64,000 nucleotides of DNA from Gammaproteobacteria bacterium. GTDB taxonomy: Bacteria > Pseudomonadota > Gammaproteobacteria > SZUA-229. This document shows, piece after piece, positions 32,842 to 55,171 of the stretch (the stretch's first letter is position 1; each line of letters begins with the position of its first letter). The notes beneath the pieces are model-generated. The model saw only the letters and a program-made list of their open reading frames with translations. It searched no databases and was not told the DNA's origin. A program made the translations under genes and the position numbers. The DNA lies in contig JAPHSS010000014.1 in assembly GCA_026195255.1 (NCBI GenBank), positions 1-64,000 of the forward strand. The letters are read 5' to 3'.

Positions 32842-34554
32842 TTGTTTAAGTTTCTACAGGGTAATAATGCAAAAAAATCAAAATGGCAAATTGATCAGGA
32901 TTTAAACCGGGGTTTAGCTTTACTGGTTTTAATAACATTTTCAATAGTTGGATCAAGTTGGTTATTTTATCTGCCTGTTTACTTTGATATCAAAATAGCG
33001 GCTCAAATTCTACCGCTAATATTTCTAATTATTTTGTTCTTTTCTGTAACAAAAATCCAGCATGTATATCTTAATAAAGTTGCACCCATACTTGCATTTT
33101 CTTTAGTTTTTTGTAGTTGGTCATATGTCGTATATTTGAACTCTATTACAGGTTTAAGTTCTACGGAAGTCAAAGATGTGGTTAATGCTCAACATTTGGG
33201 TATGTCTCAAAATGCATATCTAATTGGCCTGTGTTTTGTAACCTTCTGGTTGGGGCGTTATTTTAGATATAGTATATATCTGTCCATGGCTTTTATTATC
33301 GCATTGATAAGCATCTTATTCATATTTGCAAAAACTGAGGTTATTTATTTATTAGCACAAGCTCTGTTGTTATCTTCTAGTGCCATATTCTCTGTAGTCA
33401 GTTTGAGTAAAGCGGATTTTTCTGAAGCCAAATCAACATCTGATTCTTTTAATAAAACACTTCAGGACTCTATAAGTGAATCATCATTAAGCGAAGTTAT
33501 TTTACCGTCAGAACTTGAACAACAGATAATCAAACCTGAGTTAGATATAAATACGCTGCCATTAAATGAATCTTCAATTATCAATGACTGGGGCTTGATT
33601 CTCAGAGAGTTACATGGAGAATTAAGAAACACAACAGACGTTGATCAGTTGTTTAAACGTATGTTAACTTTTCTACATGGAGCTATGGAGTTTGATGCGG
33701 CTGCAGTTGGTATGTTGCAAGATAAAAATATACGTAAAATAGCGATTTATGGTGGTGATGATTATTTGCATGCCAAATCACTAAACTGGTCAAACCAGAG
33801 GATAAAGGAATTATTTTCAACTCGTGAACCTATTTTAAGCACCCAGTCACATTTAAGTGCAGATACAAACAATGTGACACGGCCGATTCACAGACTTGAT
33901 GTGCCTGTTATTTCTAATCAAAAGGTGGTCGGTCTTGTAACTTTATTCAGAGATGAACTTTTATTTGATACGCATGATGTAATGCTTGCATCAAGTATAG
34001 TGTTTCACAGTATGATTGCTTTGCGTCAGGCGCGATTACAGGATGAAATTAAACGCCTCAATAATGATGCCGCAGTTACAAAGTTAACACTCTTTACCCG
34101 TGAACAATTTGTAGTCAAGGTTAAACCGATATTTGAAAAACTATCAACACCACGTGAGTGTTCGCTTTTTATTGTTGAAATAGATAATCTTGAGTCAGTG
34201 ACTGATGTGCAGGGAAGAGATGCAGGAGCCAGGTTATTTAAGGCGGTTTCAAATGTAATTATGTCTCATTTAAATGAAGGTGATGTGTTAGGCCGTTATG
34301 GGAATGAGGGATTCATTGTATTACAGGATGAAACTAATTTAATGCATGCAAAATCAATCGCTGAAAAAATAAGATTAAAAGCATCACAGATTAGATTGAA
34401 ATTTCAGGATGATGTAATTACTACAACGGTGAGTATAGGTTTAACTATAGTATCTGACTCTGATGAAAGTTTATCATCTTTAATGCGAAAAGCGGACATG
34501 GGTTTATTTGTAGCTAAAGAAAATGGTTGTAATACTGTTAAAGTAAGTTTGTAA
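32842..34554 (+). CDS. Membrane GAF-GGDEF protein with degenerate active site
   Basis: Inner-membrane protein of 570 residues; TTG start at 32842 with GGGAG eight bases before. Six or so membrane helices fill residues 20-190. A GAF-like domain covers about 245-400 (AMEFDAAAVGMLQD, LVTLFRDELLFDTHDV). A diguanylate-cyclase fold follows (about 410-568). The active-site loop reads RYGNEGF (485-491) instead of RYGGDEF or RYGGEEF, and the metal site reads VEIDN instead of DIDHF. Loss of the catalytic Glu of the signature predicts no cyclase activity; a GTP or c-di-GMP receptor role is possible. The neighbouring operons give no partner. Confidence 0.82.
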   Translation: MFKFLQGNNAKKSKWQIDQDLNRGLALLVLITFSIVGSSWLFYLPVYFDIKIAAQILPLIFLIILFFSVTKIQHVYLNKVAPILAFSLVFCSWSYVVYLNSITGLSSTEVKDVVNAQHLGMSQNAYLIGLCFVTFWLGRYFRYSIYLSMAFIIALISILFIFAKTEVIYLLAQALLLSSSAIFSVVSLSKADFSEAKSTSDSFNKTLQDSISESSLSEVILPSELEQQIIKPELDINTLPLNESSIINDWGLILRELHGELRNTTDVDQLFKRMLTFLHGAMEFDAAAVGMLQDKNIRKIAIYGGDDYLHAKSLNWSNQRIKELFSTREPILSTQSHLSADTNNVTRPIHRLDVPVISNQKVVGLVTLFRDELLFDTHDVMLASSIVFHSMIALRQARLQDEIKRLNNDAAVTKLTLFTREQFVVKVKPIFEKLSTPRECSLFIVEIDNLESVTDVQGRDAGARLFKAVSNVIMSHLNEGDVLGRYGNEGFIVLQDETNLMHAKSIAEKIRLKASQIRLKFQDDVITTTVSIGLTIVSDSDESLSSLMRKADMGLFVAKENGCNTVKVSL

Positions 34555-34611: not shown

Positions 34612-35961
34612 TCATACTGATATATTATATTTCTGAATCCAGCGCCATAATGTTGTTCTGTTTACGCCCAGAATTTTTGCTGCTTCAGCTTTATTTCCCT
34701 TGCAGCTCTGCATTGCTTTTTGAATTTCATTGATTGTGTTTTCTTCATCATCAGAAACTTTCACAAAGGTATTTATATCTGAGCAGTATTCTCGTATATC
34801 CTGTGGCAGGCTCTCAGGAAAAACCACATCATCTTTCGCACAAATAATGCCATGTTCAACAGCATTTTCAAGTTCGCGTACATTTCCTGGCCATGGGTAA
34901 TCCATCATCATTCTCATGGAGTCCTGACTGCACTTCATATTTCCCGGGTAACCACGATTTTGTAGATGTAGACAAAAATGTTCTATTAATACAGGTATAT
35001 CACCAGGTCGTTCCCGTAAAGATGGCACGGTGAGTGCGATTACAGCTAGTCGATAATATAAGTCTGCACGAAATTTTCCATTATCAACCATATCCCGCAG
35101 GTTTTTATTTGAAGCAGAAATTATGCGCACATCAACCTTTATGGTTTTATCGGAACCTACCATTTCAAATTCCTGCTCCTGAATTGCACGTAGTAACTTC
35201 GCCTGTAAGTGGAGGGGAATTTCACCTACTTCATCTAGAAATAATGTTCCCTTGTGTGCACTTTGGAAACGCCCTAAACGATCAGCACTTGCACCAGTAA
35301 ATGCCCCCTTAACATGACCAAACAGTTCTGACTCTAATAAGGATTCAGGAATAGCTGCGCAGTTCACTTCTATAAATGCCGCTTTTGAGCGTTGGCTCTG
35401 GCTATGTGTTAAACGCGCTAACTGTGTTTTACCTGTTCCAGATTCACCCTGTAATAAAGTAAATGCATTGGTAGGTGCTATCTGTTGAATACGATTTATA
35501 ATTTCAAGCATTTGCGGGTCTTTGCTTGAAAGGTTAGAGCCTGACGGGTTAAGTACCGATTGAATATGATGAAAATCAGTTTTATCTCTGAATAATAATA
35601 ATCGCTTACGATCATCAGATTCATTTTCTGATATCAAACCGCTTGTGATTTCAATTACTCTGTGACTATCAGAATGTTTTATGCGTTCTTCAAAAGAGAC
35701 AAAATTACCACTGGGTTTACCCGCTGCATCTACTTCACCTGAATCAATGGCTGCCCGGAGCAATGATTTTTGTAAATTAAATTTGCCTATGTCGTTGATT
35801 TTAATTAATTCAATATCGTCGCTTATATCCAGTAGCTTTCTAACCGCTGGATTGTAATAGAGTATTTTCCCCAGTTGATCAGCAACCATAATGCCTTCGT
35901 CAATGTGTTGAATGACAGTTTTTGCCAGGGGAGCGAAATCGAACTTTGCGGACTTGGTCAT
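34612..35961 (-). CDS. PAS-containing sigma54-dependent transcriptional activator
   Basis: NtrC-family activator of 449 residues without a receiver domain. Parts: an N-terminal PAS sensor (about 12-125, [21 protein letters not shown]); the AAA+ domain with Walker A GESGTGKT at 172-179, the sigma54-contacting GAFTGA at 219-224 and Walker [10 protein letters not shown]; and a C-terminal Fis-type helix-turn-helix (about 405-447, [18 protein letters not shown]). It is divergent from the SCP2-like gene, whose promoter has a perfect sigma54 layout. Ordered inverted sites in the 276-bp gap are probably its enhancer. The PAS signal is unknown. Confidence 0.92.
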
Positions 35962-36177: not shown

Positions 36178-36193
36178 TGGCATATACGTTGCA
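36178..36193 (+). promoter_or_regulatory. Sigma54 (-24/-12) promoter of the SCP2-like gene
   Basis: TGGCAT-N5-TTGCA: the -24 GG (36179-36180) and the -12 GC (36191-36192) are separated by exactly 10 bp, matching TGGCAC-N5-TTGCW with one mismatch. The expected start is near 36204, about 35 nt before the ATG at 36238, which has a strong GGAG ribosome site. Confidence 0.85.
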
Positions 36194-36237: not shown

Positions 36238-36630
36238 ATGAGTATGTTTAATGAAGAGTGGATGAAACATTACAGCGAAGCATGGAACAGTGAGCCGGGT
36301 TTAGCTGATGCTTTAGAGCAAATTAATTTTAACTCGATAATCGGTTATGGTTTTGATGGTCAGGATGCACCTGTTGGTTTTATTGATGTGCAGAATGGAA
36401 AGGTTGTTTCTTCTGGCCCATATGATGGCCAGGAACTCAACTGGGATTTACGAGCGACTGAAGATAACTGGGAAAAATGGTCTAAAAAGCCACCCGGAAT
36501 GGTAGGTCTTGGCATGGCATACACCACTAAAAAATTAAAATTTAACGTGGGTGATTATGCCGCAATGGTTAAGGACCCCCGTATGGCAGGTCCCTTTATT
36601 AAAAGTTTTGGCGTAATGGGAAAAGTATAG
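36238..36630 (+). CDS. SCP2-like small protein under sigma54 control
   Basis: Cytoplasmic protein of 130 residues with a strong AAAGGAGA ribosome site. The alternating strand pattern (SIIGYGFDGQDAPVGFIDVQNGKVV), the central WDLRATEDNWEKWSKKPPG and the C-terminal VGDYAAMVKDPRMAGPF resemble the SCP-2 sterol-transfer fold, which binds hydrophobic ligands in a tunnel. The ligand is not known. It has a near-perfect sigma54 promoter and is followed by its own terminator, so it is monocistronic and is the main clear target of the divergent activator. Confidence 0.7.
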   Translation: MSMFNEEWMKHYSEAWNSEPGLADALEQINFNSIIGYGFDGQDAPVGFIDVQNGKVVSSGPYDGQELNWDLRATEDNWEKWSKKPPGMVGLGMAYTTKKLKFNVGDYAAMVKDPRMAGPFIKSFGVMGKV

Positions 36631-36726: not shown

Positions 36727-36806
36727 AAAGCAAGCCACTATAATTTTAATAATTGAGTTTTATACCATATTATAAAACCTCTAACATACCCTAGAATGTG
36801 AATATA

Positions 36807-38252
36807 ATGAAAATGAAACTAATTATTAAACTTGCTCTCGCTTTTTCTCCCTTATGTTTGATATCTATACTCCATGCCTCCGATACTGGTTATTATCAAA
36901 ATTTTTCAACTAATGCAGTTAATCCGTCTGCAACGCAGAATCAACAGGCTCAACAAATTTATCAGGCACCAGCGGATTACTATAGTCAGCGTAATCAGAA
37001 AAATACGAGGCAAAATAATTTTGCTGCACAAATAATTCCTGTTTCAAATATAAAAACAGGCGCTCATGTTGTTCTAGGTGGCACGGTAGTTGCGGATAAA
37101 GAAATTGTTATGACGGCACAGATATCGGGTCGTGTCGAATATATTGCGGGCCAGGAGGGTGACTGGTTTGATGAAGGGCAAATTCTGGCAGCGATTAATC
37201 ATGACAATATTCTCGCGCAGCGTGAACAGGCAATAGCTAATTTATATAGAACTGAAGCATCACTAGGTAATGCGAAAGTAAATTATACCAAAGAGTATTG
37301 GGCTCCCCAGGCCTACCGTGATTATAATAATCAGAAAAATAAACTCTATGGTCCCATGCCAGCGCCAGCAGCAGCAATGGCTTCTGCACCAGCGCAGGGT
37401 TCTGGTATGGGTTACTTTCCAACTATGTTTGATCGCTTTATGGGGATGGGCGGCAATGCGCCTGCTCAAGCCCCTTCCGCCGCCGTTGCACAACCCGTAG
37501 CAAAGCAGCAGGTTTTTAATCTTGAATATCCCAATACTCAGCTAAATCCCTGGATACATAGAGATCTGGATATGTATAGCAGTGAGAATAATATTAATAT
37601 GGCTAAAAGTAATATTATGGCGATGCGTTCCAGGGTTAATGAAATTGATACACATCTTCGAGACGCAAGATCAATAAGTCCGTTTGAAGGTGTAATTGTT
37701 GAGAAGTTAGTAGAAGTCGGTGATACGGTGCAAAGAGGACAGGCCCTGATTAAATACTCTGATACACGTTCGCTTCAGCTGGAAGTTGATGTGCCGGCAC
37801 GTCTGGTATCTTCAATTGAAATTGGCACACTTGTGCCTGCAAAACTTGATGTAGGTAGCACCTATATTGATGTGCGAGTTGCGCAAATTTTTCCAACCGC
37901 TGATAAAGAGAGACATACCGTAACTGTGAAATTTGATTTACCCGAAGGTGCACCTGGTGGCCCTGGCATGTATGCAGAAGTCATGGTACCAGATCTTAAT
38001 ACCCCGATTAACAGTATGCCGGTAATACCATCATCAGCCATTCTTCACAGAGGAAGTTTACCTGCCGTATTTGTGCTTAATAGCCAAAACAAGGCAGAGT
38101 TAAGATTAGTCAGGTTGGGTGATCAGGTTGATAACCAGTATGTGGCTGTTCTCGCTGGCGTATTACCCGGTGAAAATATATTTGTTAATCCGCATCCGGG
38201 TATGAGATCTGGCTGGACGCCACAAAAAGAAAATAATAGCAATTTTAAATAA
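36807..38252 (+). CDS. Periplasmic membrane-fusion protein of an RND system, with low-complexity insertion
   Basis: HlyD/AcrA-type adaptor of 481 residues from the ATG at 36807 (a GTG at 36798 would add three). The signal peptide ends in ILHA. A Gln/Asn/Tyr-rich stretch leads into the lipoyl half GGTVVADKEIVMTAQISGRV. The other lipoyl half is ISPFEGVIVEKLVEVGDTVQRGQ; beta-barrel and membrane-proximal domains follow (about 310-470). Between the two lipoyl halves the usual long alpha-hairpin is interrupted by about 75 residues rich in Pro, Ala, Met and Gly. An adaptor joins an RND pump to an outer-membrane channel; the channel is not in this window. The RND gene follows after 145 bp. Confidence 0.85.
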   Translation: MKMKLIIKLALAFSPLCLISILHASDTGYYQNFSTNAVNPSATQNQQAQQIYQAPADYYSQRNQKNTRQNNFAAQIIPVSNIKTGAHVVLGGTVVADKEIVMTAQISGRVEYIAGQEGDWFDEGQILAAINHDNILAQREQAIANLYRTEASLGNAKVNYTKEYWAPQAYRDYNNQKNKLYGPMPAPAAAMASAPAQGSGMGYFPTMFDRFMGMGGNAPAQAPSAAVAQPVAKQQVFNLEYPNTQLNPWIHRDLDMYSSENNINMAKSNIMAMRSRVNEIDTHLRDARSISPFEGVIVEKLVEVGDTVQRGQALIKYSDTRSLQLEVDVPARLVSSIEIGTLVPAKLDVGSTYIDVRVAQIFPTADKERHTVTVKFDLPEGAPGGPGMYAEVMVPDLNTPINSMPVIPSSAILHRGSLPAVFVLNSQNKAELRLVRLGDQVDNQYVAVLAGVLPGENIFVNPHPGMRSGWTPQKENNSNFK

Positions 38253-38397
38253 ACAAATTGCATATAAGTGGTATTAAAAGTTTTACAGGTTTTGCAAATT
38301 ACATAACATTGCTGCATACGAGTTATTGCCCTGATGAATTTTAAACCAGAGAGAAGCTGATGATTAAACTGGAATATAAATAACTGAGTTACCAAAC

Positions 38398-41300
38398 ATG
38401 GCAAATGAATTAAACGAAAAAGACATTACTGAAGAGTCTGAAGAGTTAAACCAGAAGAATCTTGGAATCGCTGGGAGAATTACTCGTCAGTTTATTAACT
38501 CTCCTGTAACGCCTTTATTAATGGCCGCTTTTTTAATGATTGGTATACTGGGTTTAATGTTTACACCCAGGCAGGAAGATCCAAAAATTTCTGTGCCAAT
38601 GGTTGACATCTTTGTTAAATATTCGGGTGCTTCTGCAGAACAAATAGCTAATCTTGCTATAACCCCACTGGAAAGAATGATCAGTGAGATTCCTGGTATT
38701 CGCCATGTTTATTCAGCAAGTCAACGTGGTTCAGGCCTTGTAACGGCGCAGTTTTTTGTGGGTGAAGACCTGGGTGAATCAATTGTAAAAATTCACGATA
38801 AAATACAGTCAAATCTTGATGCTATACCCCCCGGCGTATCAATGCCGTTAGTGAAACCTGTCGGGCCAGATGATGTGCCTGTTGTTACCGCAACAATCTG
38901 GTCTGAAGATCCGTCTATTGATGATGCCATTTTGCGTACACTCGCACTTGATATTTTACAAAATCTTGAGCAGGTGCCAAATTCTGGTAAGGGTTTTGTT
39001 GTAGGTGGTCGAGCTGAACAGATTCGAATAGAAGTATCACCGGAACGTTTAAATGGATTTGGTATTAGCATTCAGGAGGTTGCAAACACAATCAAAACCG
39101 CAAACAGTGAACTATCTGCAGGAAATATTGAAGGCGGAAACCGAACTTTTAATGTTTACACCGGTTCCTTTTTAAATGATGCACAGGATGTTGCCAATCT
39201 TGTGGTTGCTGTTAGAAACGGTTCTCCAGTATATGTTCGAGATATTGCTCATGTGTATCAGGCACCAGAAGAAACAGCCCAAATAGTTAATTTTGCGACT
39301 GGGCCGGCTTATGAAGGAAGTGGGCCTACGACAAGCGGTTCTCAGGCTGTAACTATAGCGGTTGCAAAAAAAGTTGGATCAAACGGCGTTACCATTGCTA
39401 GAGATTTAATTGCTAAGTTAGATTCTTTAAAAGGCCACCTGATTCCAGACAATGTTGAAGTTAGTATTACCCGTGATTACGGTAAATCAGCCAACGACAA
39501 AGTTAATGAATTATTGTTAGCTTTATTTGAAGCAACAGTGGCAGTGAGCATTTTGTGTTTAATTGGCTTAGGAGCACGAGCCGCATCTGTTGTTATATTT
39601 GTTATCCCTGTTGTTATTTTAATGACTGTCTGGGCGGCGTGGGTAATTGATTATACGATAGACAGGGTAAGTTTGTTCGCACTGGTATTTACTATTGGTA
39701 TTTTGGTAGATGATGCAACCGTTGTTGTAGAAAATATATTTCGACGATGGCTGAAAGCGGGTAAAACAACAACCGCTATTGCGATAGATGCGGTACGTGA
39801 AGTCGGTAACCCCACCATTATGGCAACACTGGCCATCATTGCTGCATTATTAGCAATGGGTTTTGTAAGTGGTCTAATGGGGCCATATATGCGACCGATT
39901 CCTGTTCTGGGTTCAGCTGCGATGTTCCTGTCCCTGCTAGCAGCATTTATTTTCGTTCCCTGGTTTGCAATGCGTTTGCGGCCTGATATGGAAGCCTTAA
40001 AGAAGGCAGAGAAAAAAGAATTACGACAAATTGAAATGATAGGGCGTTTTTACGAACCTGTTATGAAACCACTAATGAATAATAAATTAGTCGGTCGTGT
40101 ATTTCTGTTCTCCCTGATCGCGTTAACTTTTATTTCCTGTTATCTATTTTCTATAAAAGCAGTAACAGTAAAAATGTTACCGTTCGATAATAAACCTGAG
40201 TTCAATGTAGTTATTAATATGCCTGAAGGTACGGCGTTACCAGTGACTGCAAATTTAACATCTCGTCTAGCTGCAAAACTTCAGGAAATTCCCGAAATTA
40301 CAGCAATACAAACTTATGTGGGTACATCTTCACCATTTAATTTTAATGGCATGGTAAGACATTATTATATTCGCAAGCAGCCCTGGCATGCCGATATTCA
40401 GGTTATGTTGTTAGATAAAGATGATCGTGAACGTTTTAGTCACGATATTGCTGTAAATGCCCGTGAATTATTAAAACCAATTGCTGATGAAATGGGCGCT
40501 CGAATACAGGTAGTAGAGATGCCACCCGGGCCACCTGTTTTACAAACTGTTGTTGCAGAGATTTATGGGCCCGATGCGAAGACTCGTAGACAGGTAGCAA
40601 AAGATATGACAGGTATCTTTGAGCAGGCTGAAGGTCTTGTTGATGTTGATAATTATATGGCGGATGAATATGAGTATTGGCGTTTTGAAGTTGATACTAA
40701 AAAAGCTGCTCGTCGAGGAGTTTCTGTCAACACAATTAATCAAACACTTGCCATGGTTATGGGTGGTTATAAGTTAGGTGACGTAAAGAAAGGTAAAGTA
40801 CTGGAACCCACCTATATTGTTATTCAGGCCCCTATGGGGGTGCGATCGGAGATAAATCGTCTAGGTAATATGCCGATTACAGGTGTTAATGGTCAATCAA
40901 TTCCACTAACAGAATTAGGCCGCTTTGTTCGTGCAACTGAAGACCCTATCGTGTATCACAAGGATTTGCGCGATGTAGAGTACGTAACAGGTGAAATGGC
41001 TGGTCGATTAGGTGCGCCAATTTATGGCATGTTCTCAGTAGAAGATTTACTCAAAGATTATATAACGCCGGATGGACAAACTATAACCGGAATGCCTATG
41101 GGCTTGATTGGGCCACCAAAAGATGACTTTAAGTCAGCATTTGAATGGGGTGGTGAATGGACAGTAACCTATGAAACTTTTCGTGATATGGGCGGTGCTT
41201 TCATGGCTGCGATGTTACTCATCTATGGATTAATTGTTTGGGAGTTTAAAGATTTTACTTTGGGTGGATTGATTATGGCACCAATTCCACTAACTTTGAT

Positions 41301-42180
41301 CGGTATCATACCGGGGCATATGATTACCGGTGCAGAATTTACAGCAACCTCGATGATTGGTTTTATTGCCCTCGCAGGAATTGTCGTCAGGAACTCAATT
41401 TTACTTGTTGAGTTCGTTAAACATGAAGTGGCTGATGGTGGCGAAATATGTGATGCAGTAATTAATGCAGGTAAAGCGCGTATGCGTCCTATTTTAATTA
41501 CCGCATTAACATTGATGGCTGGTTCTTACATGATACTTGACGACCTTATTTTTAAAGGTATGGCTGTTAGTTTATTGTTTGGTGCCGGTGTTGCAACGGT
41601 ATTAACACTTGTAGTTATTCCCCTGGGTTGTATCAGTGTTAAGAAACATTTTTACATGTGTCGTTGTGATGATGGAGAGGTCATTGTTTATCGCGATGAG
41701 CCAGAAGAGTACAAACTGCCGTTATGGATGCAAATTTATTCTTCAGTTATTAACGCGGCAATGTGGTTGTTCTATATAGGTCGCATGTTTGTGATAATGG
41801 TTAAGATGGGCATAGATCGAGTTTTTGGAGCATCAGCAAATGAGTCGCCAACTACCAATAATTATGCTTCAGAACCACCTGTAGATTCACCACCAACGCC
41901 TGAAGAGCCCCCAGCTAAACCACAAGCTCCGAAAACTTCAGACAATAAGCAGACTACAGATAAAAAAGCGGATGTTAAAACCGCCTCAAAGGACGCGTCA
42001 TCAGAAGAAACGGTTGCAAAAAAAGCACCACCTAAAAAGAAAGAATCAACTAAGAAAAAAGCGGCACCAAAAAAGAAGGTAACGCCTAAGAAGAAGGCGT
42101 CAACCAGGAAAAAAACGGTTGTAAAGAAACGCAGAGGTATTAAATTAAAAGATGACTCTGACGATACTAATTCTGATTAG
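38398..42180 (+). CDS. RND transporter permease with extra membrane segment and lysine-rich tail
   Basis: RND permease of 1260 residues, against 1030-1050 for the usual family. The standard core is clear: TM1 at about 38-56, periplasmic porter loops (about 60-370), TM4 with the proton-relay pair Asp438-Asp439 in GILVDDATVVVEN, a second porter loop (about 590-925) and TM8-12. After TM12, at about residue 1085, comes a Cys-containing loop (FYMCRCDDGEV), one more hydrophobic segment (AAMWLFYIGRMFVIMV, about 1120-1137) and a cytoplasmic or periplasmic tail of about 115 residues rich in Pro, then Lys (KKKAAPKKK-type repeats). The double Asp marks a proton-driven HAE-type pump. The substrate is unknown. 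Confidence 0.88.
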   Translation: MANELNEKDITEESEELNQKNLGIAGRITRQFINSPVTPLLMAAFLMIGILGLMFTPRQEDPKISVPMVDIFVKYSGASAEQIANLAITPLERMISEIPGIRHVYSASQRGSGLVTAQFFVGEDLGESIVKIHDKIQSNLDAIPPGVSMPLVKPVGPDDVPVVTATIWSEDPSIDDAILRTLALDILQNLEQVPNSGKGFVVGGRAEQIRIEVSPERLNGFGISIQEVANTIKTANSELSAGNIEGGNRTFNVYTGSFLNDAQDVANLVVAVRNGSPVYVRDIAHVYQAPEETAQIVNFATGPAYEGSGPTTSGSQAVTIAVAKKVGSNGVTIARDLIAKLDSLKGHLIPDNVEVSITRDYGKSANDKVNELLLALFEATVAVSILCLIGLGARAASVVIFVIPVVILMTVWAAWVIDYTIDRVSLFALVFTIGILVDDATVVVENIFRRWLKAGKTTTAIAIDAVREVGNPTIMATLAIIAALLAMGFVSGLMGPYMRPIPVLGSAAMFLSLLAAFIFVPWFAMRLRPDMEALKKAEKKELRQIEMIGRFYEPVMKPLMNNKLVGRVFLFSLIALTFISCYLFSIKAVTVKMLPFDNKPEFNVVINMPEGTALPVTANLTSRLAAKLQEIPEITAIQTYVGTSSPFNFNGMVRHYYIRKQPWHADIQVMLLDKDDRERFSHDIAVNARELLKPIADEMGARIQVVEMPPGPPVLQTVVAEIYGPDAKTRRQVAKDMTGIFEQAEGLVDVDNYMADEYEYWRFEVDTKKAARRGVSVNTINQTLAMVMGGYKLGDVKKGKVLEPTYIVIQAPMGVRSEINRLGNMPITGVNGQSIPLTELGRFVRATEDPIVYHKDLRDVEYVTGEMAGRLGAPIYGMFSVEDLLKDYITPDGQTITGMPMGLIGPPKDDFKSAFEWGGEWTVTYETFRDMGGAFMAAMLLIYGLIVWEFKDFTLGGLIMAPIPLTLIGIIPGHMITGAEFTATSMIGFIALAGIVVRNSILLVEFVKHEVADGGEICDAVINAGKARMRPILITALTLMAGSYMILDDLIFKGMAVSLLFGAGVATVLTLVVIPLGCISVKKHFYMCRCDDGEVIVYRDEPEEYKLPLWMQIYSSVINAAMWLFYIGRMFVIMVKMGIDRVFGASANESPTTNNYASEPPVDSPPTPEEPPAKPQAPKTSDNKQTTDKKADVKTASKDASSEETVAKKAPPKKKESTKKKAAPKKKVTPKKKASTRKKTVVKKRRGIKLKDDSDDTNSD

Positions 42181-42256
42181 AATAATGACTCAGAAGATAA
42201 GTCATAATTTATTTGACCTAAACCTTGAAATTAAATGAGTTGAGTAGGGTAAAAAT

Positions 42257-43246
42257 ATGAAAGTTACAAGAATATTATCAATAACAGGTGTGATGTTGAT
42301 GAGCACTCAGTTAAATGCTGCAGTAGTTGAAAATAATCAAATTATGCCACCACCGGGGCCGTATAAATCAATCATGAGTAATACGCCACCCGCTTTTGTA
42401 CCTTATGGTTCCCAACAGGCGCAAAATAACCCGTATCAACAAAATCAGGCGTCACAGGCATTTAACCGTTTTCCTGCTAATAACCAGCCATTGCATAAAC
42501 CTGCAGAACAGTTGCCTGAATGGGTGGTAAGTAAACAGCAGGAAAATAAAGCCAGGATTGAAAAGATGCTTGAGGAAAATGCAGCAAGAAATAAAGAAAA
42601 TGAAAAACGTTTTACTGAGTATCTTGAAAAAGCAGAAGCACTCGCTAAAAAAAGAAATGAAGAAAATAAAAAGTGGGTAGCTGAAAATAATAAAAAAATG
42701 AAGGAATTCTGGCAATCTGAACTTGATAAATTTGCTAAAAATCAAAAATTACAAATAGAGAAAGCTAAAGATCTTCCAGACTGGGTTAAGAAGAATATGT
42801 TAGAGCGCCAACAAAAACAACTGGCAGTAATGAAAGAGAATCCACCAATGCCTATGCAAATGCCCAGCCAAAATTCCAGGCAAAATTTAAGGCAGAATTC
42901 AATGCAACGTAATCCGCCTTCAATGAATGAATTTAATAATATGCAACAGTCGCCACCTGCTCATCAGATGCCTTCAAGTATGCAGTTCAGACAGCCGCCG
43001 CTTATGCAACAACATCAGCAACAGCAGCCAGGTATGAACCAGCCGTTTAATTCAGGCCAGCAAAATATGCCCAGACAATTTATGCAGCAGCCTCGTCAGG
43101 CTCCGCCTATGCAACAACAATATCGGTCACAGCCTTTTTATAATACGCCAGAAAATCGGCAGTTTGTGCCTCCTGTGCAAGGTCCATATTCAGGGGCTGT
43201 AAGCGGGCAACCTAATATTAATCCATATAATCGATATTCACGTTAA
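42257..43246 (+). CDS. Secreted Gln/Pro/Met-rich coiled-coil protein
   Basis: Exported protein of 329 residues. The signal peptide ends in LNA or NAA (about residue 22). A Pro/Gln/Asn segment leads to a charged coiled coil (about 85-190, rich in Lys, Glu, Asn; contains LPEWVVSKQQEN and a second LPDWVKKNMLERQQ, a possible internal repeat). The C-terminal 140 residues are low complexity, dominated by Gln, Pro, Met and Asn (for example MPMQMPSQN and QQHQQQQPG). No family recognised. It lies 76 bp after the RND gene in the same direction, so it may be a cargo or a structural partner. Confidence 0.75.
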   Translation: MKVTRILSITGVMLMSTQLNAAVVENNQIMPPPGPYKSIMSNTPPAFVPYGSQQAQNNPYQQNQASQAFNRFPANNQPLHKPAEQLPEWVVSKQQENKARIEKMLEENAARNKENEKRFTEYLEKAEALAKKRNEENKKWVAENNKKMKEFWQSELDKFAKNQKLQIEKAKDLPDWVKKNMLERQQKQLAVMKENPPMPMQMPSQNSRQNLRQNSMQRNPPSMNEFNNMQQSPPAHQMPSSMQFRQPPLMQQHQQQQPGMNQPFNSGQQNMPRQFMQQPRQAPPMQQQYRSQPFYNTPENRQFVPPVQGPYSGAVSGQPNINPYNRYSR

Positions 43247-43270
43247 GTTCGAGGATTTATAGAGAGAGTT

Positions 43271-43918
43271 ATGAATATAATAAATACACGTATCATTGTA
43301 ATTATGAGTCTTTCGGTGGCTGCATTTTTCCCATTTGCAGCATATTCGTATCACAATGAATCGATATATAACCATGCACAACATGATCATGCTACTAGCG
43401 TTCATGATCTTAAAAAATGGAAAACAGGCTCGAATTTTCATGTTCGTAACAAGCCTGTGCGTGTACCTGTTGCTACTCGTAAAGTTGAGGAAGATCATTA
43501 TGCCTTAACTGAACCGCAGAGAAAGTCAGTTAATCCATGGATCATTAAAAAACCAGATAATAATGGTTTTTCTAAAATGAATGCGAAACGTCCATGGGGT
43601 AGTGTGCCTGAGAAATATTCAGATAAAACAAAGAAGAATAAAAAGAATAAAAACAATCTATCTGTTATTAACAATGTTCACGCAAATAACCAGCTAAAGT
43701 ATAAACCGTTTGGGGAAAATAATTTATTACTTAATCAAAATAGAAATCCTTCTTTAATACCCATAGCAGGACATTTTCCTACTTATTCAGATCCAGGCGG
43801 TTTTTCACCAATGTATGCAGACCCTGGTTATGGTTATGGTTATGGATATGGTGGCTACAATGCGTATCCGTTTATGGGGCAGGGTTTTATGCCATTCAAT
43901 AGATATGGCTGGCGATAG
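43271..43918 (+). CDS. Secreted protein with Tyr/Gly-rich C-terminus
   Basis: Exported protein of 215 residues with a signal peptide ending in FAAYS (about residue 26). The mature part is basic and rich in Lys, Asn and His in the first 150 residues (including [14 protein letters not shown]). It ends in a short Gly/Tyr/Phe-rich tail ([24 protein letters not shown]) similar in composition to the next gene's product. No family recognised. Gap of 24 bp to the previous gene. It could assemble with the sulfur-globule-like protein by its aromatic-glycine tail. Confidence 0.7.
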
Positions 43919-44031
43919 AAAAAATTAAATCGAAATCTGGTTTAGTTCCGCATGTTGAACTTTCCGCTGCATGTTTGATTAGAAGGCATATGTCTTCAGG
44001 AAAATATAAATACATAACTGAGGATCATACG

Positions 44032-44475
44032 ATGAAAAAAGTATCAAAAATTATATCAGCAGCAGCTTTATTAGGTGCACTGGCAACCCCGATGATGGCT
44101 GATGCCTGGTGGGGACCATTTAATAATAATGGTTGGGGTAACAATAATAACGGCTGGAACAATAATGGCAATGGTAATGGTAACGGTTGGGGAATGGGAG
44201 ACTTCCTTGGCAACGGTGGCCTAGATTTTAATATGAGCGGCAATGGACGCGGTAATGGTTACGGTAATGGCTACGGCAATAACAGCTATAACGGTAACAA
44301 TCGTTTCAATGGTTACAACGGTTATAATGGATATAACGGTTACAACGGTGGTTATGGTGCACCTTATGGTTATGGCGCACCTTATGGCGGCGGCGCACCT
44401 TATGGTTACGGAGCACCTTATGGCGGTGGACACCCAGGTTATGGTCCTGCACCGGTACCTGCACCCGGTCAGTAG
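44032..44475 (+). CDS. Sulfur-globule-like Gly/Asn/Tyr-rich secreted protein
   Basis: Exported protein of 147 residues. The ATG at 44032 (MKKVSKIIS) is chosen over an upstream in-frame ATG because it has GAGGA at the right distance and gives a clean Sec signal peptide ending MMADA before WWGPF. The mature chain is a low-complexity repeat protein: Asn/Gly blocks ([10 protein letters not shown]), NGYNGY-type repeats and YGAPYGGG-type repeats. Composition and export resemble the Gly/aromatic-rich envelope proteins of sulfur globules (Sgp) in purple sulfur bacteria. I infer a structural, self-assembling role; the sulfur link is not proven. No sulfur-oxidation gene is in this window. Confidence 0.7.
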
Positions 44476-44498
44476 TTCAGTTACTGATGTGTATAGAG

Positions 44499-44518
44499 AA
44501 CACAAGGATGTGTTTTTT
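44499..44518 (+). terminator. Possible attenuator behind the sulfur-globule-like gene
   Basis: AACACA, loop AGGA, TGTGTT, followed by TTTT. A short AT-rich hairpin with a T run 23 bp after the stop. It might let most transcripts end here so that the repeat protein is made in excess over the downstream genes. Confidence 0.4.
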
Positions 44519-44550
44519 ATATTTTATTTATTAAACCTTCAGGTAGACGA

Positions 44551-45357
44551 ATGTTCATGACTTTTAAATCTTTGATAGTAACGATGGTGTTGTTTTTGCT
44601 TACTAATAATGGTTATGCATCGATAACAGATAAAGAATTTTCAGCTGATGCTGTTGTGTCTATACCCGGGCAACCGTCTACTACAAGTAAATTATTTGTA
44701 GGTAAAGATGTTGTTCGAACAGAAGTGCAAACCAGTGACGGTGTTATTATTGATATCGTTTATCCATATATGGGTAAAGCAATAAAGTTAAACACAAAGC
44801 ATCACGAGTATATTGAGATAGCAATAGAAAAACAAAATAAAGATCAGAATTTAAATCCTTGTAGCCGAATTCAGAATGCAAATTGTACTTTGTTAGGCAG
44901 CGAGCTTGTTGATGGTATGCCGGCACAAAAGTGGCAGATTGTAGCAAATCAAAATGGTAAAAATATAAGAACATTACATTGGGTTGATGTTAAAAGACAA
45001 TTGGCTGTACGTGAGTTTTTTAATGATGGATCAATGGCAGAAATGAAACTTGAAAAAAATGAAGTTGTTGATGGGCGTAAAACAGAGCGTTGGGTTAGAA
45101 CGATTAGTCGACCCGATGGGTCTATGGTTAGTTCATATCAATGGTATGATCCACAGTTAGAAATATCCATAAAAGAAGAGTTGCCAGGTGGTTACATCAG
45201 ACAGTTAAAAAATATAAAGGTGGGCACTCAAAAGAAAACAATATTTGCTGTTCCAGATAATTACAAAATCATGCGACCAGAACAATTACAGTTAAACAGA
45301 TCGATAAACAGGCCGTCTCGATCGCCTGCTAACTCATCATCACAAAACTACAGGTAG
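44551..45357 (+). CDS. Exported LolA-like/DUF4412-type protein
   Basis: Exported protein of 268 residues; the signal peptide ends in NGYAS (about residue 24). The chain is beta-rich, with paired segments typical of LolA/LolB-like or DUF4412 folds: FSADAVVSIPGQPSTTSKLF, VRTEVQTSDGVIIDIVYP and a repeated KWQIV...KTERWVR pattern. One Cys pair (NPCSRIQNANC) may form a disulfide. The C-terminus is Asn/Ser/Arg-rich. Proteins of this kind bind lipids or protein partners in the periplasm. It precedes the ParA-like gene by 7 bp. Confidence 0.6.
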   Translation: MFMTFKSLIVTMVLFLLTNNGYASITDKEFSADAVVSIPGQPSTTSKLFVGKDVVRTEVQTSDGVIIDIVYPYMGKAIKLNTKHHEYIEIAIEKQNKDQNLNPCSRIQNANCTLLGSELVDGMPAQKWQIVANQNGKNIRTLHWVDVKRQLAVREFFNDGSMAEMKLEKNEVVDGRKTERWVRTISRPDGSMVSSYQWYDPQLEISIKEELPGGYIRQLKNIKVGTQKKTIFAVPDNYKIMRPEQLQLNRSINRPSRSPANSSSQNYR

Positions 45358-45364
45358 AACTAAA

Positions 45365-45988
45365 TTGGTTACTGTTATTGCAAACTTAAAAGGTGGTTCA
45401 GGTAAAAGCACGGTGATATTTAATCTTGCATTGTGGTTAAAAGAAAAAGATCAATTAATAATGGCTTTTGATCTTGATCCACAAGGCACTTTGAGTGATG
45501 TTGCAGATGTTAGAAAAGACGAGGGTTTAGAGGCGCTGGAAGTGTTGACTGATGTCGAAGAAATTAAAAACCATCTTGATAAACATGTTCTTGTAGATGT
45601 AGGTGCTTCAAATATGCAAGATATGAAGTTGGCAATAAAATTAGCAGATCGAGTATTAATACCAGTTTCTCCTAGTCAGCCTGATTTATGGGCGACACAA
45701 AGATTTTTAAAAATAGTTAAAGAATGTGATTCAGAGGATAAACCTCTTGAATTATTGGCATTTATTAATAGAGCAGATACGCATACCATGGTTCGCGAAT
45801 CAGATGAAACAGAAGAGGCGCTTAATACAATAAAAGCAATTCAGGTCTTACCGCACAGGCTTTGCCAACGAACAATGTTTAGACGTACTTTAAGTGAGGG
45901 CATGTCTATTAATGAAATATCACCTAATAGCAAAAGTGCTAAAGAATTTAATACACTAGCTTCAGCTCTTTATGCTGATCTGGTTTAA
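45365..45988 (+). CDS. Orphan ParA/MinD-type ATPase
   Basis: ParA-family ATPase of 207 residues with a TTG start at 45365. The deviant Walker A is KGGSGKST with the signature Lys9 and Lys14. Walker A' is AFDLDPQGTLSD and Walker B is HVLVDVG. It is of the short type without an N-terminal DNA-binding domain. No ParB gene or parS-like repeats are nearby, and chromosome partition genes are elsewhere, so it probably positions a protein complex rather than DNA. It is tightly coupled to the exported-protein gene before it and the membrane TPR gene after it. Confidence 0.85.
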   Translation: MVTVIANLKGGSGKSTVIFNLALWLKEKDQLIMAFDLDPQGTLSDVADVRKDEGLEALEVLTDVEEIKNHLDKHVLVDVGASNMQDMKLAIKLADRVLIPVSPSQPDLWATQRFLKIVKECDSEDKPLELLAFINRADTHTMVRESDETEEALNTIKAIQVLPHRLCQRTMFRRTLSEGMSINEISPNSKSAKEFNTLASALYADLV

Positions 45989-46000
45989 TCGGAGTTAAAA

Positions 46001-46789
46001 ATGAAAAGCTTAGTTAAAAAAACAATATGGTTAATTATTTATTTACTGCCTATTTTAGCTCTAATCTACTATCGTGCATTTATATTTACACCGCATTTTA
46101 ATAAACCGATTGATAATGCACTTAACGATCTCTCTCAAGCTATAGGATTTGAAATTCCTTCATATAAGCTTGCAAATAATGAAGGGTCTTTATATAAGCA
46201 GTATTTAGGTGATTCTGAAACAACAGTGCAAACTGAAGTCTCAGTAAATACTACAACGCCTTTAGAAGAGCCTGTTTCTCAGCCTGCTGATATGATGAAT
46301 GGAGCTTTAGAGCCTGAAGTTGAATTAATTCCCGAAGTGGAATCTGCTGCTATTGAAACTGAAGAATCAGATCTTGATATGAAACAGATAGTTTCAGCTG
46401 TTAAGGAATCAGTGAGTGAGTCCCTTGAAACTTTTATGGATGAAAAAGAATCACAGCCATTAGAAAGTGAATCTTCTTTATTAAGTGCGCAGGAATTATT
46501 ATTCAAGGCGCGTTTAGCCTATTGGAATGGTGATTTAAAAACAGCAGAAAATACATATATTCAATTAACTGAAATGTTAAGTGACGACCCTAATGTTTAT
46601 GGTGAATTAGGAAATCTCTATTATATGCAGTCTAAATGGAAGTTGGCGAGTGATGCATATTATCATGCGGCCCTTAAACTAAGTAAGACAAAAAATGCTT
46701 ATCAGGCACAGCACCTGTTGCGTATTATTCGCGGGCTTGATACTGAAACAGCTGATAAGTTACAGGCCGAATTAAACCATACCAGTTAA
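46001..46789 (+). CDS. Membrane-anchored TPR protein
   Basis: Protein of 262 residues with one N-terminal membrane segment (about 8-28, IWLIIYLLPILALIYY). A long acidic linker rich in Glu, Ser, Val (about 75-155) follows, then two to three TPR-like helix pairs near the C-terminus (ARLAYWNGDLKTAENTYIQL, YGELGNLYYMQSKWKLASDAYYHAAL). No family recognised beyond TPR. It lies 12 bp behind the ParA-like gene with a GGAG-type ribosome site. It may be the membrane partner that the ATPase positions. Confidence 0.72.
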   Translation: MKSLVKKTIWLIIYLLPILALIYYRAFIFTPHFNKPIDNALNDLSQAIGFEIPSYKLANNEGSLYKQYLGDSETTVQTEVSVNTTTPLEEPVSQPADMMNGALEPEVELIPEVESAAIETEESDLDMKQIVSAVKESVSESLETFMDEKESQPLESESSLLSAQELLFKARLAYWNGDLKTAENTYIQLTEMLSDDPNVYGELGNLYYMQSKWKLASDAYYHAALKLSKTKNAYQAQHLLRIIRGLDTETADKLQAELNHTS

Positions 46790-46819
46790 ACCAGATTAGT
46801 AAACTTTTTTGAGATAATA

Positions 46820-47389
46820 ATGAATACAGATCATAAGCCGAAAAAAATTAAAAATGTACGTGAAGTCATTATTGAGGCAATAGAATGTGAGCCCGGTATT
46901 GCAGGTTGTACGGCTGACCCTGATACCTGTCCTAACTCGCCAGATACATGTGACAAAAAATTATCAATGTTTGGATATTATGACGATACAATTAAGGATA
47001 GTGTGGAACATGTTTTAAGCAGAAGCCTTGACGATTTAACGAAAACTTTTACTGCAAGTGCCAGGCGTTGGGAGTTAATTGTTTACCCGGCAATGTTTAG
47101 TTTTGTAGTATTAGCGATTTATGGTTTTTTTCTTATTTTCAGTTTAACAAAAGATATCACCATTGTTTCAACAGAGATGGTTAATATGAGTCGAAATATG
47201 ACTCAGATGACGACAGATGTGCACAACATGACATTAATAATGCAGGATCAGTCTATGTATATTAGTGAAATGAATAAAAATATGCGCAACATGTCTATGT
47301 CTATGAATCAAATGCGTTATGACATGTCAAGCATGAATAGTAATGTTTCCAGGCCAATGAACTTTATGAATTCATTTGCACCGTGGTGA
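46820..47389 (+). CDS. Met-rich membrane coiled-coil protein
   Basis: Protein of 189 residues. The N-terminal cytoplasmic part carries six cysteines within about 35 residues (ECEPGIAGCTADPDTCPNS, PDTCDKK), possibly a metal site. One membrane segment follows (about 92-113). After it comes a helical stretch (about 115-175) with a seven-residue-like pattern in which Met and Asn recur (NMSRNMTQMTTDVHNM, MSMSMNQM). About 25 residues of the last 75 are Met. No family recognised. Met-rich periplasmic segments bind Cu(I) in some copper proteins, and Met also packs coiled coils; neither is shown here. It is the last gene of the cluster. Confidence 0.7.
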   Translation: MNTDHKPKKIKNVREVIIEAIECEPGIAGCTADPDTCPNSPDTCDKKLSMFGYYDDTIKDSVEHVLSRSLDDLTKTFTASARRWELIVYPAMFSFVVLAIYGFFLIFSLTKDITIVSTEMVNMSRNMTQMTTDVHNMTLIMQDQSMYISEMNKNMRNMSMSMNQMRYDMSSMNSNVSRPMNFMNSFAPW

Positions 47390-47549: not shown

Positions 47550-48677
47550 ATGGACGAACATCACGATCAACTTGCTGATATCAATAAACAACTTCCTTTG
47601 AAGGATAAACTGGTATCAACACATAAGTCTTTAAATGATCTGTTCCCTTTTATTGTTCGTGTAGCTGTTGCTTTATACGATTCTGAAACAAAGGTACTCA
47701 AAACATATTTACATAGTGGCGATACCGATAATCCTCTTGAGCACTATCAGACATTACTTGATCATGCTCCATCATTAAAAAAAATTTTAGATAAAGGCCA
47801 TCCAAGGGTAATTAATAATTTACTGACATTTGATAATGGCTCGCATGAGCATACTCGCCGCATCGGACGAGGCGGATTTGCTGCAAGTTACACTTTACCT
47901 ATATTTAATGAAGGTGATTTCATTGGTTTTATCTTTTTTAATGCGGATAAAACAGATGTATTTACAGAAAGTGTTCTCAGCCAGATAGATGTGTACGCGC
48001 ATATGATTACCTTAATGGTAATTAATGAACTTAGTTCTATAAAAACACTGACAGCAGCGGTGAAAACAACGGGTCATATCACACATATGAGAGATCCCGA
48101 AACAGGTAGTCACCTCGATCGAATGTCACGTTATAGTCGTTTGATAGCGACCGAACTTGCAGAGACCTACGACCTTAATGATGACTATATAGAACACATA
48201 TTTATGTTTTCACCATTACATGATATTGGAAAAATCGCCATACCTGATCACATATTATTAAAGCCGGGTCAGCTTGATGATGACGAAACTACTATTATGA
48301 AAACTCATGTTCACAAGGGTTGTGAAATCATAGATGAGTTACTGGTAAACTTCGGCTTAAATAATATCAAACATATGGATATTCTACGTAATATTGCCGA
48401 AGGGCATCACGAAGCAATAAACGGCAGTGGCTACCCTGCGGGTATAATGGGTGAGAGTATTCCTCTGGAGGCACGCATTGTCGCTGTAGCTGATGTATTT
48501 GATGCTTTAACCAGTAAACGAACCTATAAAGAAGCCTGGAGTAATGAAAAAGCTATCGAGCTTATAAAGAGTCTGGCTGGTGAGAAGCTCGACCAGAACT
48601 GTGTGAATGCTTTACTCAAAAACATGGATCAGGTTGTGCGCATTCAGTTACAGTTTAAGGAAAATATAATAGGTTAA
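47550..48677 (+). CDS. GAF-like/HD-GYP cyclic-di-GMP phosphodiesterase
   Basis: Protein of 375 residues. A GAF-like sensor (about 20-170, VRVAVALYDSETKVLKTYL, GFIFFNADKTDVFTES) precedes an HD-GYP domain. The metal-binding HD pair is His224-Asp225 (LHDIGKIAIP), with GHHEAINGSGYP carrying the GYP triplet at 294-296, and VADVFDALTSKRTYK after it. All key residues are present, so hydrolysis of c-di-GMP is expected. It follows the RND cluster after 160 bp and may or may not belong to it. Confidence 0.88.
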   Translation: MDEHHDQLADINKQLPLKDKLVSTHKSLNDLFPFIVRVAVALYDSETKVLKTYLHSGDTDNPLEHYQTLLDHAPSLKKILDKGHPRVINNLLTFDNGSHEHTRRIGRGGFAASYTLPIFNEGDFIGFIFFNADKTDVFTESVLSQIDVYAHMITLMVINELSSIKTLTAAVKTTGHITHMRDPETGSHLDRMSRYSRLIATELAETYDLNDDYIEHIFMFSPLHDIGKIAIPDHILLKPGQLDDDETTIMKTHVHKGCEIIDELLVNFGLNNIKHMDILRNIAEGHHEAINGSGYPAGIMGESIPLEARIVAVADVFDALTSKRTYKEAWSNEKAIELIKSLAGEKLDQNCVNALLKNMDQVVRIQLQFKENIIG

Positions 48678-54469: not shown

Positions 54470-55171
54470 TTACTTACGTCTAGCCAATCCAAGCAAGCCA
54501 ATTAAGCCAGAGCTAAATAACCACATTGCGGCTGGCACGGGTACTGTCGTAATTTCTGCGTATTCTATGCTTAAATTCGCACTTGAGCCAAGTGTTGCAT
54601 AAACATTCCAGTAAGAAACATCAAATAGAAATCCCAGGTTATTCGAGTCGTCAATATTGGTAATTAAAAAGTCTGTGACATCGAGTGAATAACTTCTATT
54701 GTAGTAACCAGAGCCCCCCGTGAATTGGGTATAACCCAAGTTATTGCTAGTTTGAGAAAAATCGTCAAGTGAAACATTGCCGTCTGCAACGTAGCCGTAT
54801 GTTCTTAAACCGTCGCCATAACTCCCGCTAGTATAAGATGAAGTGAAGTTAAGTGATGCGGAAATAATTTCATCTGAGGAAATTACAGTCGTTGTTGGTA
54901 ATGAAAATTCATAAACACCTCTAAACTCTGCGTAGTTAAAGACCGATGTTCCATTTATTTTTCGTAGAAAAATATCATCCGCAGTGCCTATTATGTCAAA
55001 CGTTCCATCCATTTGACCTCCACCAGAGGTGCCGCCGTCAACAGCGTAACCTGATGCAGTGGAGTTAATGCTTAATATGCTGGCATGTGAAGCTGCTTGT
55101 ATGAAAAATAAAATAAAAAGCAAAGGGATGTTTCTTTTACATTTGTAAAAATTGTGCCATAAAATTTCCAT
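54470..55171 (-). CDS. PEP-CTERM-anchored secreted protein
   Basis: Exported protein of 233 residues with an N-terminal signal peptide (about 12-30) and a C-terminal sorting signal: VPVPAAMWLFSSGLIGLLG followed by LARRK. This is the variant PEP-CTERM motif recognised by exosortase (EpsH) systems that accompany exopolysaccharide formation. The mature part is Ser/Thr/Gly/Tyr-rich with beta-sandwich-like strands. A second protein with the same signal starts at the right edge of the window. The exosortase is not in this window. Confidence 0.85.
   Translation of the reverse strand: MEILWHNFYKCKRNIPLLFILFFIQAASHASILSINSTASGYAVDGGTSGGGQMDGTFDIIGTADDIFLRKINGTSVFNYAEFRGVYEFSLPTTTVISSDEIISASLNFTSSYTSGSYGDGLRTYGYVADGNVSLDDFSQTSNNLGYTQFTGGSGYYNRSYSLDVTDFLITNIDDSNNLGFLFDVSYWNVYATLGSSANLSIEYAEITTVPVPAAMWLFSSGLIGLLGLARRK

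Follow-up and report, generated by a model that had tools for sequence, protein, structure and literature searches.

The stretch of DNA that we analyzed (the window) comprises 64,000 nucleotides, positions 1 to 64,000 of contig JAPHSS010000014.1 from a gammaproteobacterium of the SZUA-229 lineage, and it contains a cluster of genes for a resistance-nodulation-division (RND) transporter, its periplasmic adaptor, a sulfur globule-type protein (SGP), a small ParA ATPase, and several exported or membrane-anchored proteins. An initial annotation had described nine genes on one strand with mostly short gaps. The open reading frame (ORF) list of the window confirmed nine ORFs, all on the + strand at the positions given there and separated, from the adaptor gene to the last gene, by 145, 76, 24, 56, 75, 7, 12, and 30 nt, and profile searches confirmed the adaptor, RND, SGP-type, and ParA assignments. 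In a terminator scan, no terminator-like site was found on the coding strand between the cluster genes. The nine genes stood as described, but the unit exceeds them: on its upstream side it also takes in a gene for a 130-amino-acid protein and a divergent gene for a sigma-54 activator, and in relatives it is extended by genes for a dynamin-like GTPase and a DUF302 membrane protein. The features of the unit are as follows.

34612 to 35961, - strand: sigma-54 activator of the NtrC type (PAS-AAA-HTH), a divergent ORF identified by its motifs, with homologues adjoining the cluster in relatives
36178 to 36193, + strand: putative sigma-54 -24/-12 promoter, TGGCATATACGTTGCA, score 14 of 15, 45 nt 5' of the first gene
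36238 to 36630, + strand: conserved 130-amino-acid cytosolic protein, first gene of the unit, kept 5' of the adaptor gene in relatives
36798 to 38252 (ATG at 36807), + strand: RND periplasmic adaptor with an unusual hairpin tip, GMGYFPTMFDRF, from the RND_mfp profile and tip comparison
38398 to 42180, + strand: RND permease of the HAE type with an extra helix and a Lys-rich C-terminal tail, from the ACR_tran profile and homologue alignment
41842 to 42180, + strand: Pro/Lys-rich tail of the RND permease (residues 1149 to 1260) with RRGIKLK, the motif linked to ParA, close to its end, from homologue comparison
42257 to 43246, + strand: LC1, exported Gln/Pro/Asn/Met-rich low-complexity protein (ORF, hydropathy, composition)
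43271 to 43918, + strand: LC2, exported Asn/Lys/Tyr/Gly low-complexity protein (ORF, hydropathy, composition)
43975 to 44475 (likely start 44032), + strand: SGP (PF17228), from a profile match and signatures shared with paralogues
44551 to 45357, + strand: exported DUF4412 protein with a predicted LolA/LolB/RseB fold (profile, predicted structure, Foldseek)
45365 to 45988, + strand: small ParA ATPase with the deviant Walker A motif KGGSGKST (profile, PDB matches)
46001 to 46789, + strand: single-pass membrane protein with predicted tetratricopeptide repeats (TPR) on the periplasmic side (profile search, hydropathy)
46820 to 47389, + strand: single-pass membrane protein with a Met-rich C-terminal coiled coil (ORF, hydropathy, composition)

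The full row of genes (130-amino-acid protein, adaptor, RND, low-complexity proteins, SGP, LolA-like, ParA, TPR, and Met-rich) recurs within the genus and the family of the source organism, and in other genera and families the DUF302 and dynamin-like genes are added downstream. Among the 62 RND loci with enough flanking sequence, we found the adaptor gene at 57, the Met-rich gene at 41, ParA at 39, the dynamin-like gene at 32, the LolA-like and TPR genes at 31 each, SGP at 23, and DUF302 at 18. The initial annotation had held that the cluster would be a chance grouping if its genes were not neighbors in related genomes; the same gene order in sister genera and in other families rejects that explanation. 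In the window genome, a dynamin-like gene (53% identical) lies on another contig beside a gene for a Met/Gln-rich single-span membrane protein (L239 5597-8088, G000:C70), and this unlinked pair seems to be the second half of the system, which has split off in this genus. The 130-amino-acid protein that heads the unit is strongly conserved; its likeness to SCP2 was seen by eye only, with no Pfam or PDB match, and we left it unnamed. A phage origin of the Met-rich gene was also considered and rejected, as it had no match in phages.

The SGP of the cluster matched PF17228 at 29.6 bits against a cutoff of 26.7, and it shares the signatures WWGPF and GD-xxG-xGxxxFNM-GRG with two paralogues encoded elsewhere in the window genome, which also carries dsrA. 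These paralogues (L236 1498-1905 and L237 1375-1809) have no other cluster gene that we found beside them. Across a sample of 369 genomes of the class, the clade of the cluster's RND permease (matches above 1,090 bits plus three partial genes) was present in 75, dsrA in 118, and PF17228 in 56. The clade occurred in 51 of the 56 SGP-positive genomes and in 24 of the 313 SGP-negative ones, leaving 5 genomes with SGP only and 289 with neither (Fisher's exact test, P = 5e-38). Within the dsrA-positive genomes, 46 had both RND and SGP, 18 had RND only, 4 had SGP only, and 50 had neither (P = 2e-13); these P values overstate the evidence because the sampled genomes are related. For RND and dsrA over all 369 genomes, the corresponding counts were 64 with both, 11 with RND only, 54 with dsrA only, and 240 with neither. 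Since the tie between RND and SGP holds within dsrA-positive genomes, it is a tie to globule proteins, beyond sulfur oxidation alone. Carriers of the RND clade include Allochromatium, Chromatium, Thiocapsa, Thiorhodococcus, Halochromatium, Thiohalocapsa, Sedimenticola, Thiothrix, Thiofilum, Thiomargarita, and Venteria, as well as a Leucothrix metagenome-assembled genome and a vesicomyid clam symbiont; most of the named carriers are sulfur oxidizers known for internal sulfur. Thus, of the envelope inclusions or surface layers that had been suggested for this cluster, inclusions gained support from an association with globule coat proteins, while surface layers found none.

The RND permease matched ACR_tran at 457 bits over residues 29 to 1075, and its proton-relay residues, the acidic pair D438 and D439 in transmembrane segment 4 (TM4) and R998 in TM10, were invariant in 29 homologues. 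Beyond residue 1145, the protein has a tail with 30 Lys/Arg against 17 Asp/Glu residues, an excess that favors a cytoplasmic location. The length of this Lys-rich tail varies among relatives; in the window, 36-bp repeats (2.2 copies, positions 42019 to 42099) encode part of it. Its last conserved piece is RRGI(R/K)LK. Using a strict pattern fixed before counting, we found a linked ParA gene in 39 of the 41 motif-bearing loci versus 8 of the 30 others (P = 9e-10). With a relaxed pattern and one masked tail left out, ParA was present at 45 and absent from 3 loci with the motif, and present at 1 and absent from 21 loci without it. When only loci keeping other core genes were counted, the corresponding numbers were 43 and 1 versus 1 and 6 (P = 2.7e-6), and the motif had no link to the Met-rich, dynamin-like, TPR, LolA-like, or DUF302 genes (P = 0.4 to 1). 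The motif was found in none of 48 distant RND proteins.

The sole ParA locus without the motif is a frameshift, and its next frame ends in ASARRGIKLKPLDDE. Three loci with the motif lack a linked ParA gene, and in each of these genomes a ParA homologue is encoded at another site (59, 55, and 36% identity, the last a weak match), whereas five motif-free genomes had distant ParAs only, or none; the ParA labels do not cover all paralogues across whole genomes. In a second set, no motif-bearing RND was seen among those read from six genomes without a cluster-type ParA, while four ParA-carrying genomes have a motif-bearing RND gene beside ParA and a fifth has a contig that breaks off at the expected site of the RND gene. 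One displaced ParA orthologue, not linked to the RND gene, immediately follows an SGP-type gene on its downstream side (L252 9058-10250, G212:C25). The RND tail motif and ParA are thus coupled across loci at the level of sequence. The ParA of the window and its relatives carry KGGSGKST with the signature lysine, and ParF and McdA are among their PDB matches. In published work, partners of ParA make contact with it through disordered segments rich in aliphatic and basic residues (PMC12462528, PMC10241942, PMC12204374). The RND tail appears to offer a segment of this kind, and we infer that ParA may bind it directly.

The adaptor matched RND_mfp at 130 bits. Its hairpin is short, and a comparison of homologue tips revealed a conserved tip around GMGxPSMFDxF; the TolC-docking motif R-x3-L-x6-S was not found in the tips compared. 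A profile scan of the cluster products, which does not exclude a TolC encoded elsewhere, found no TolC-like protein among them, in agreement with the initial annotation. The LolA-like protein had a DUF4412 match just under its cutoff, and its AlphaFold2 model (mean predicted local distance difference test [pLDDT] score, 87.7) matched LolA3 in Foldseek at 2e-7 and aligned to RseB and LolA with VIA-align Z scores of about 9 to 11. As modeled, this protein has the open half-barrel LolA/LolB/RseB fold, known members of which hold hydrophobic ligands. The combination of retained proton-relay residues in the transporter, an adaptor tip lacking the TolC motif, and this predicted fold suggests that a hydrophobic cargo is handled inside the periplasm.

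We also found sequence features that point to sigma-54 control of the unit. Counterparts of the -24/-12 promoter lie at about -57 relative to the gene for the 130-amino-acid protein in sister genomes, and 14 of 31 loci score at least 12, compared to 1.75 expected from shuffles. The product of the divergent gene contains the ESGTGK and GAFTGA motifs, so read from its sequence, and sigma-54 control of the unit by this activator is the likely arrangement.

From these data, we propose that the cluster encodes an envelope machine for building or feeding sulfur globules in the periplasm, with ParA spacing its sites and sharing them out, a reading to which we assign a probability of about 0.6. In the proposed sequence of events, the sigma-54 activator would turn the unit on, and SGP, LC1, and LC2, which have signal peptides by hydropathy, would reach the periplasm as putative coat proteins. 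The proton-driven RND permease and its adaptor would then move a hydrophobic cargo, most likely sulfur or polysulfane dissolved in the membrane, from the inner membrane to the globule. The LolA-fold protein would take this cargo in the periplasm, a route that we prefer to exit through TolC because the adaptor tip lacks the docking motif. The TPR and Met-rich single-pass proteins may brace the site, with the Met-rich part in the periplasm. ParA on the nucleoid would bind the disordered basic RND tail through RRGI(R/K)LK and so position the assembly sites, and the dynamin-like GTPase, unlinked in the window genome, may shape the membrane around the globule. A more specific version, in which the RND permease is itself the ParA cargo adaptor of a dedicated globule organelle system that couples filling, placing, and inheriting while the GTPase shapes the pocket, is put forward tentatively, at somewhat below even odds.

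Several observations weigh against this proposal. Some of the SGP matches in the co-occurrence count are the cluster's own gene, 24 genomes carry the RND clade without an SGP match, and the co-occurrence could mirror a shared lifestyle, with RND, SGP, and dsr all marking sulfur oxidizers. On the RND tree, raw independent contrasts between motif and ParA gave 5 in the same and 0 in the opposite direction, a small number of contrasts (P = 0.06), and the 7 of 7 obtained after correcting the exceptions (P = 0.016) depends on corrections made post hoc. The identity of the cargo is a guess, membrane-dissolved sulfur or polysulfane being the natural candidate. In addition, vesicomyid clam symbionts and their close kin with reduced genomes (L112, L197, and L198) keep only the adaptor and RND genes, with an RND tail lacking the motif and with no ParA orthologue found in those genomes, so the transporter can work without ParA. 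This retention of the adaptor and RND alone would also be expected of a sulfide-linked efflux pump for toxic sulfur species or sulfide-associated metals, with SGP, ParA, and the other genes under the same regulation but not parts of one machine. The HAE-type RND and adaptor profiles fit such a pump, as does an SQR/RND/adaptor operon of Azospira that is induced by sulfide and whose RND genes rise during sulfide oxidation; deletion of that operon left sulfide oxidation unslowed, which we count against our own proposal, and the Azospira RND was not compared with the clade described here (PMC5358917). We nonetheless consider a simple pump unlikely, given that the motif in the tail is tied to ParA in particular throughout the tree, that the cluster encodes no outer membrane partner and its adaptor tip lacks the TolC motif, and that the globule-protein tie is strong within dsrA-positive genomes.

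The main weak point of the ParA model is a 35-residue hydrophobic helix after TM12 (residues 1109 to 1143; hydropathy of 1.8 at 1117 to 1135), which could be a thirteenth membrane span; the tail would then be periplasmic, beyond the reach of ParA, and its tie to ParA would be indirect. The full-length RND model, with a mean pLDDT of 74, is too low in confidence to place this helix across or along the membrane. Against a span are the amphipathic character of the helix (moment of about 0.4), the basic excess of the tail, and the fact that the motif is linked to an ATPase of the cytosol but not to any component in the periplasm; a periplasmic tail seems very unlikely to us. A ParA-positioned complex for some other envelope structure common to sulfur oxidizers, such as pili, gliding machinery, a sheath, or exopolysaccharide, would accommodate ParA, TPR, and low-complexity exported proteins as well as the presence of the cluster in filamentous Thiothrix relatives. 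This we judge to be quite unlikely, as the unit has no conserved genes for pili, polysaccharides, or motility, SGP genes lie in or near it and also beside the displaced ParA, and the RND clade is present in nearly all genomes with an SGP.

Although sulfur globules were first observed more than a century ago, their coat proteins alone are known. To our knowledge, no machine has been described for filling or sharing out these globules, and we know of no described system that joins an RND transporter to ParA; for these two reasons, we regard the proposed system as new in kind, while its individual parts all belong to known families and the function of the whole is putative. The initial annotation likewise could name no known system combining these parts, and the open-access literature searched yielded no description of a globule function for RND or ParA, although subscription journals may contain one. 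The globule envelope of Allochromatium vinosum (SgpA to SgpD) resembles the proposed system in its periplasmic SGP-family coat proteins and differs in that the papers found assign no role to a transporter, ParA, LolA-like protein, or dynamin. In that organism, SgpD localizes to globules in cells, and its gene, which sulfide strongly induces, is reported to adjoin a gene for an exporter of hydrophobic or amphiphilic compounds (PMC10386293). No SGP-like neighbor was seen at the second RND locus that we examined in A. humboldtianum (L226), and we could assign the published SgpD-linked exporter to no clade.

Other known systems share parts of the cluster. Aryl polyene and xanthomonadin clusters pair RND/MMPL exporters with LolA-like carriers for a hydrophobic product, and thus also set an RND-superfamily transporter beside a LolA-fold periplasmic protein; in contrast, the system described here has no biosynthesis genes, occurs in sulfur oxidizers only, and includes ParA and SGP. 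Tripartite HAE-type pumps (TriABC, MexJK, and AcrAB-TolC) have the same RND family, an adaptor, and the proton-relay acidic pair and arginine (D438/D439 and R998 in the window RND), and the cluster differs from them in having no TolC gene, an adaptor tip without the docking motif, a long Lys-rich tail, and the fixed company of ParA, SGP, and LolA-like genes. ParA/MinD positioning systems (McdAB of carboxysomes and ParF-ParG) likewise use a small deviant-Walker-A ParA, the nearest solved structure being ParF and the N terminus resembling McdA, and a partner with a disordered basic-aliphatic motif, here proposed to be the RND tail. In those systems the motif lies at the N terminus of a soluble or DNA-binding protein, whereas here it would lie in the C-terminal tail of a membrane transporter. 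Among the loci listed, none showed McdB or carboxysome genes beside ParA, although no McdB profile was run. If the proposal is correct, docking of a transporter to ParA by its tail would extend ParA positioning to a transmembrane machine, and the cluster supplies named genes, and one short motif, for the filling of globules and their sharing at division.

Overall, the idea of a ParA-positioned export or assembly machine put forward in the initial annotation was largely supported. What the present analysis adds to it are the motif in the RND tail, the upstream genes with their sigma-54 promoter, and the dynamin-like and DUF302 partners. Neither a defense system (no PADLOC match) nor an RNA element (no Rfam match in the window) was retained as a candidate. 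Genes for a GGDEF protein (32842 to 34554) and an HD-GYP protein (47550 to 48677) flank the cluster, the former kept in the same genus, hinting at control of the cluster by cyclic di-GMP. Farther downstream, on the - strand (54470 to 55171), the window encodes an exported protein with a PEP-CTERM-like C terminus (VPVPAAMWLFSSGLIGLLGLARRK).

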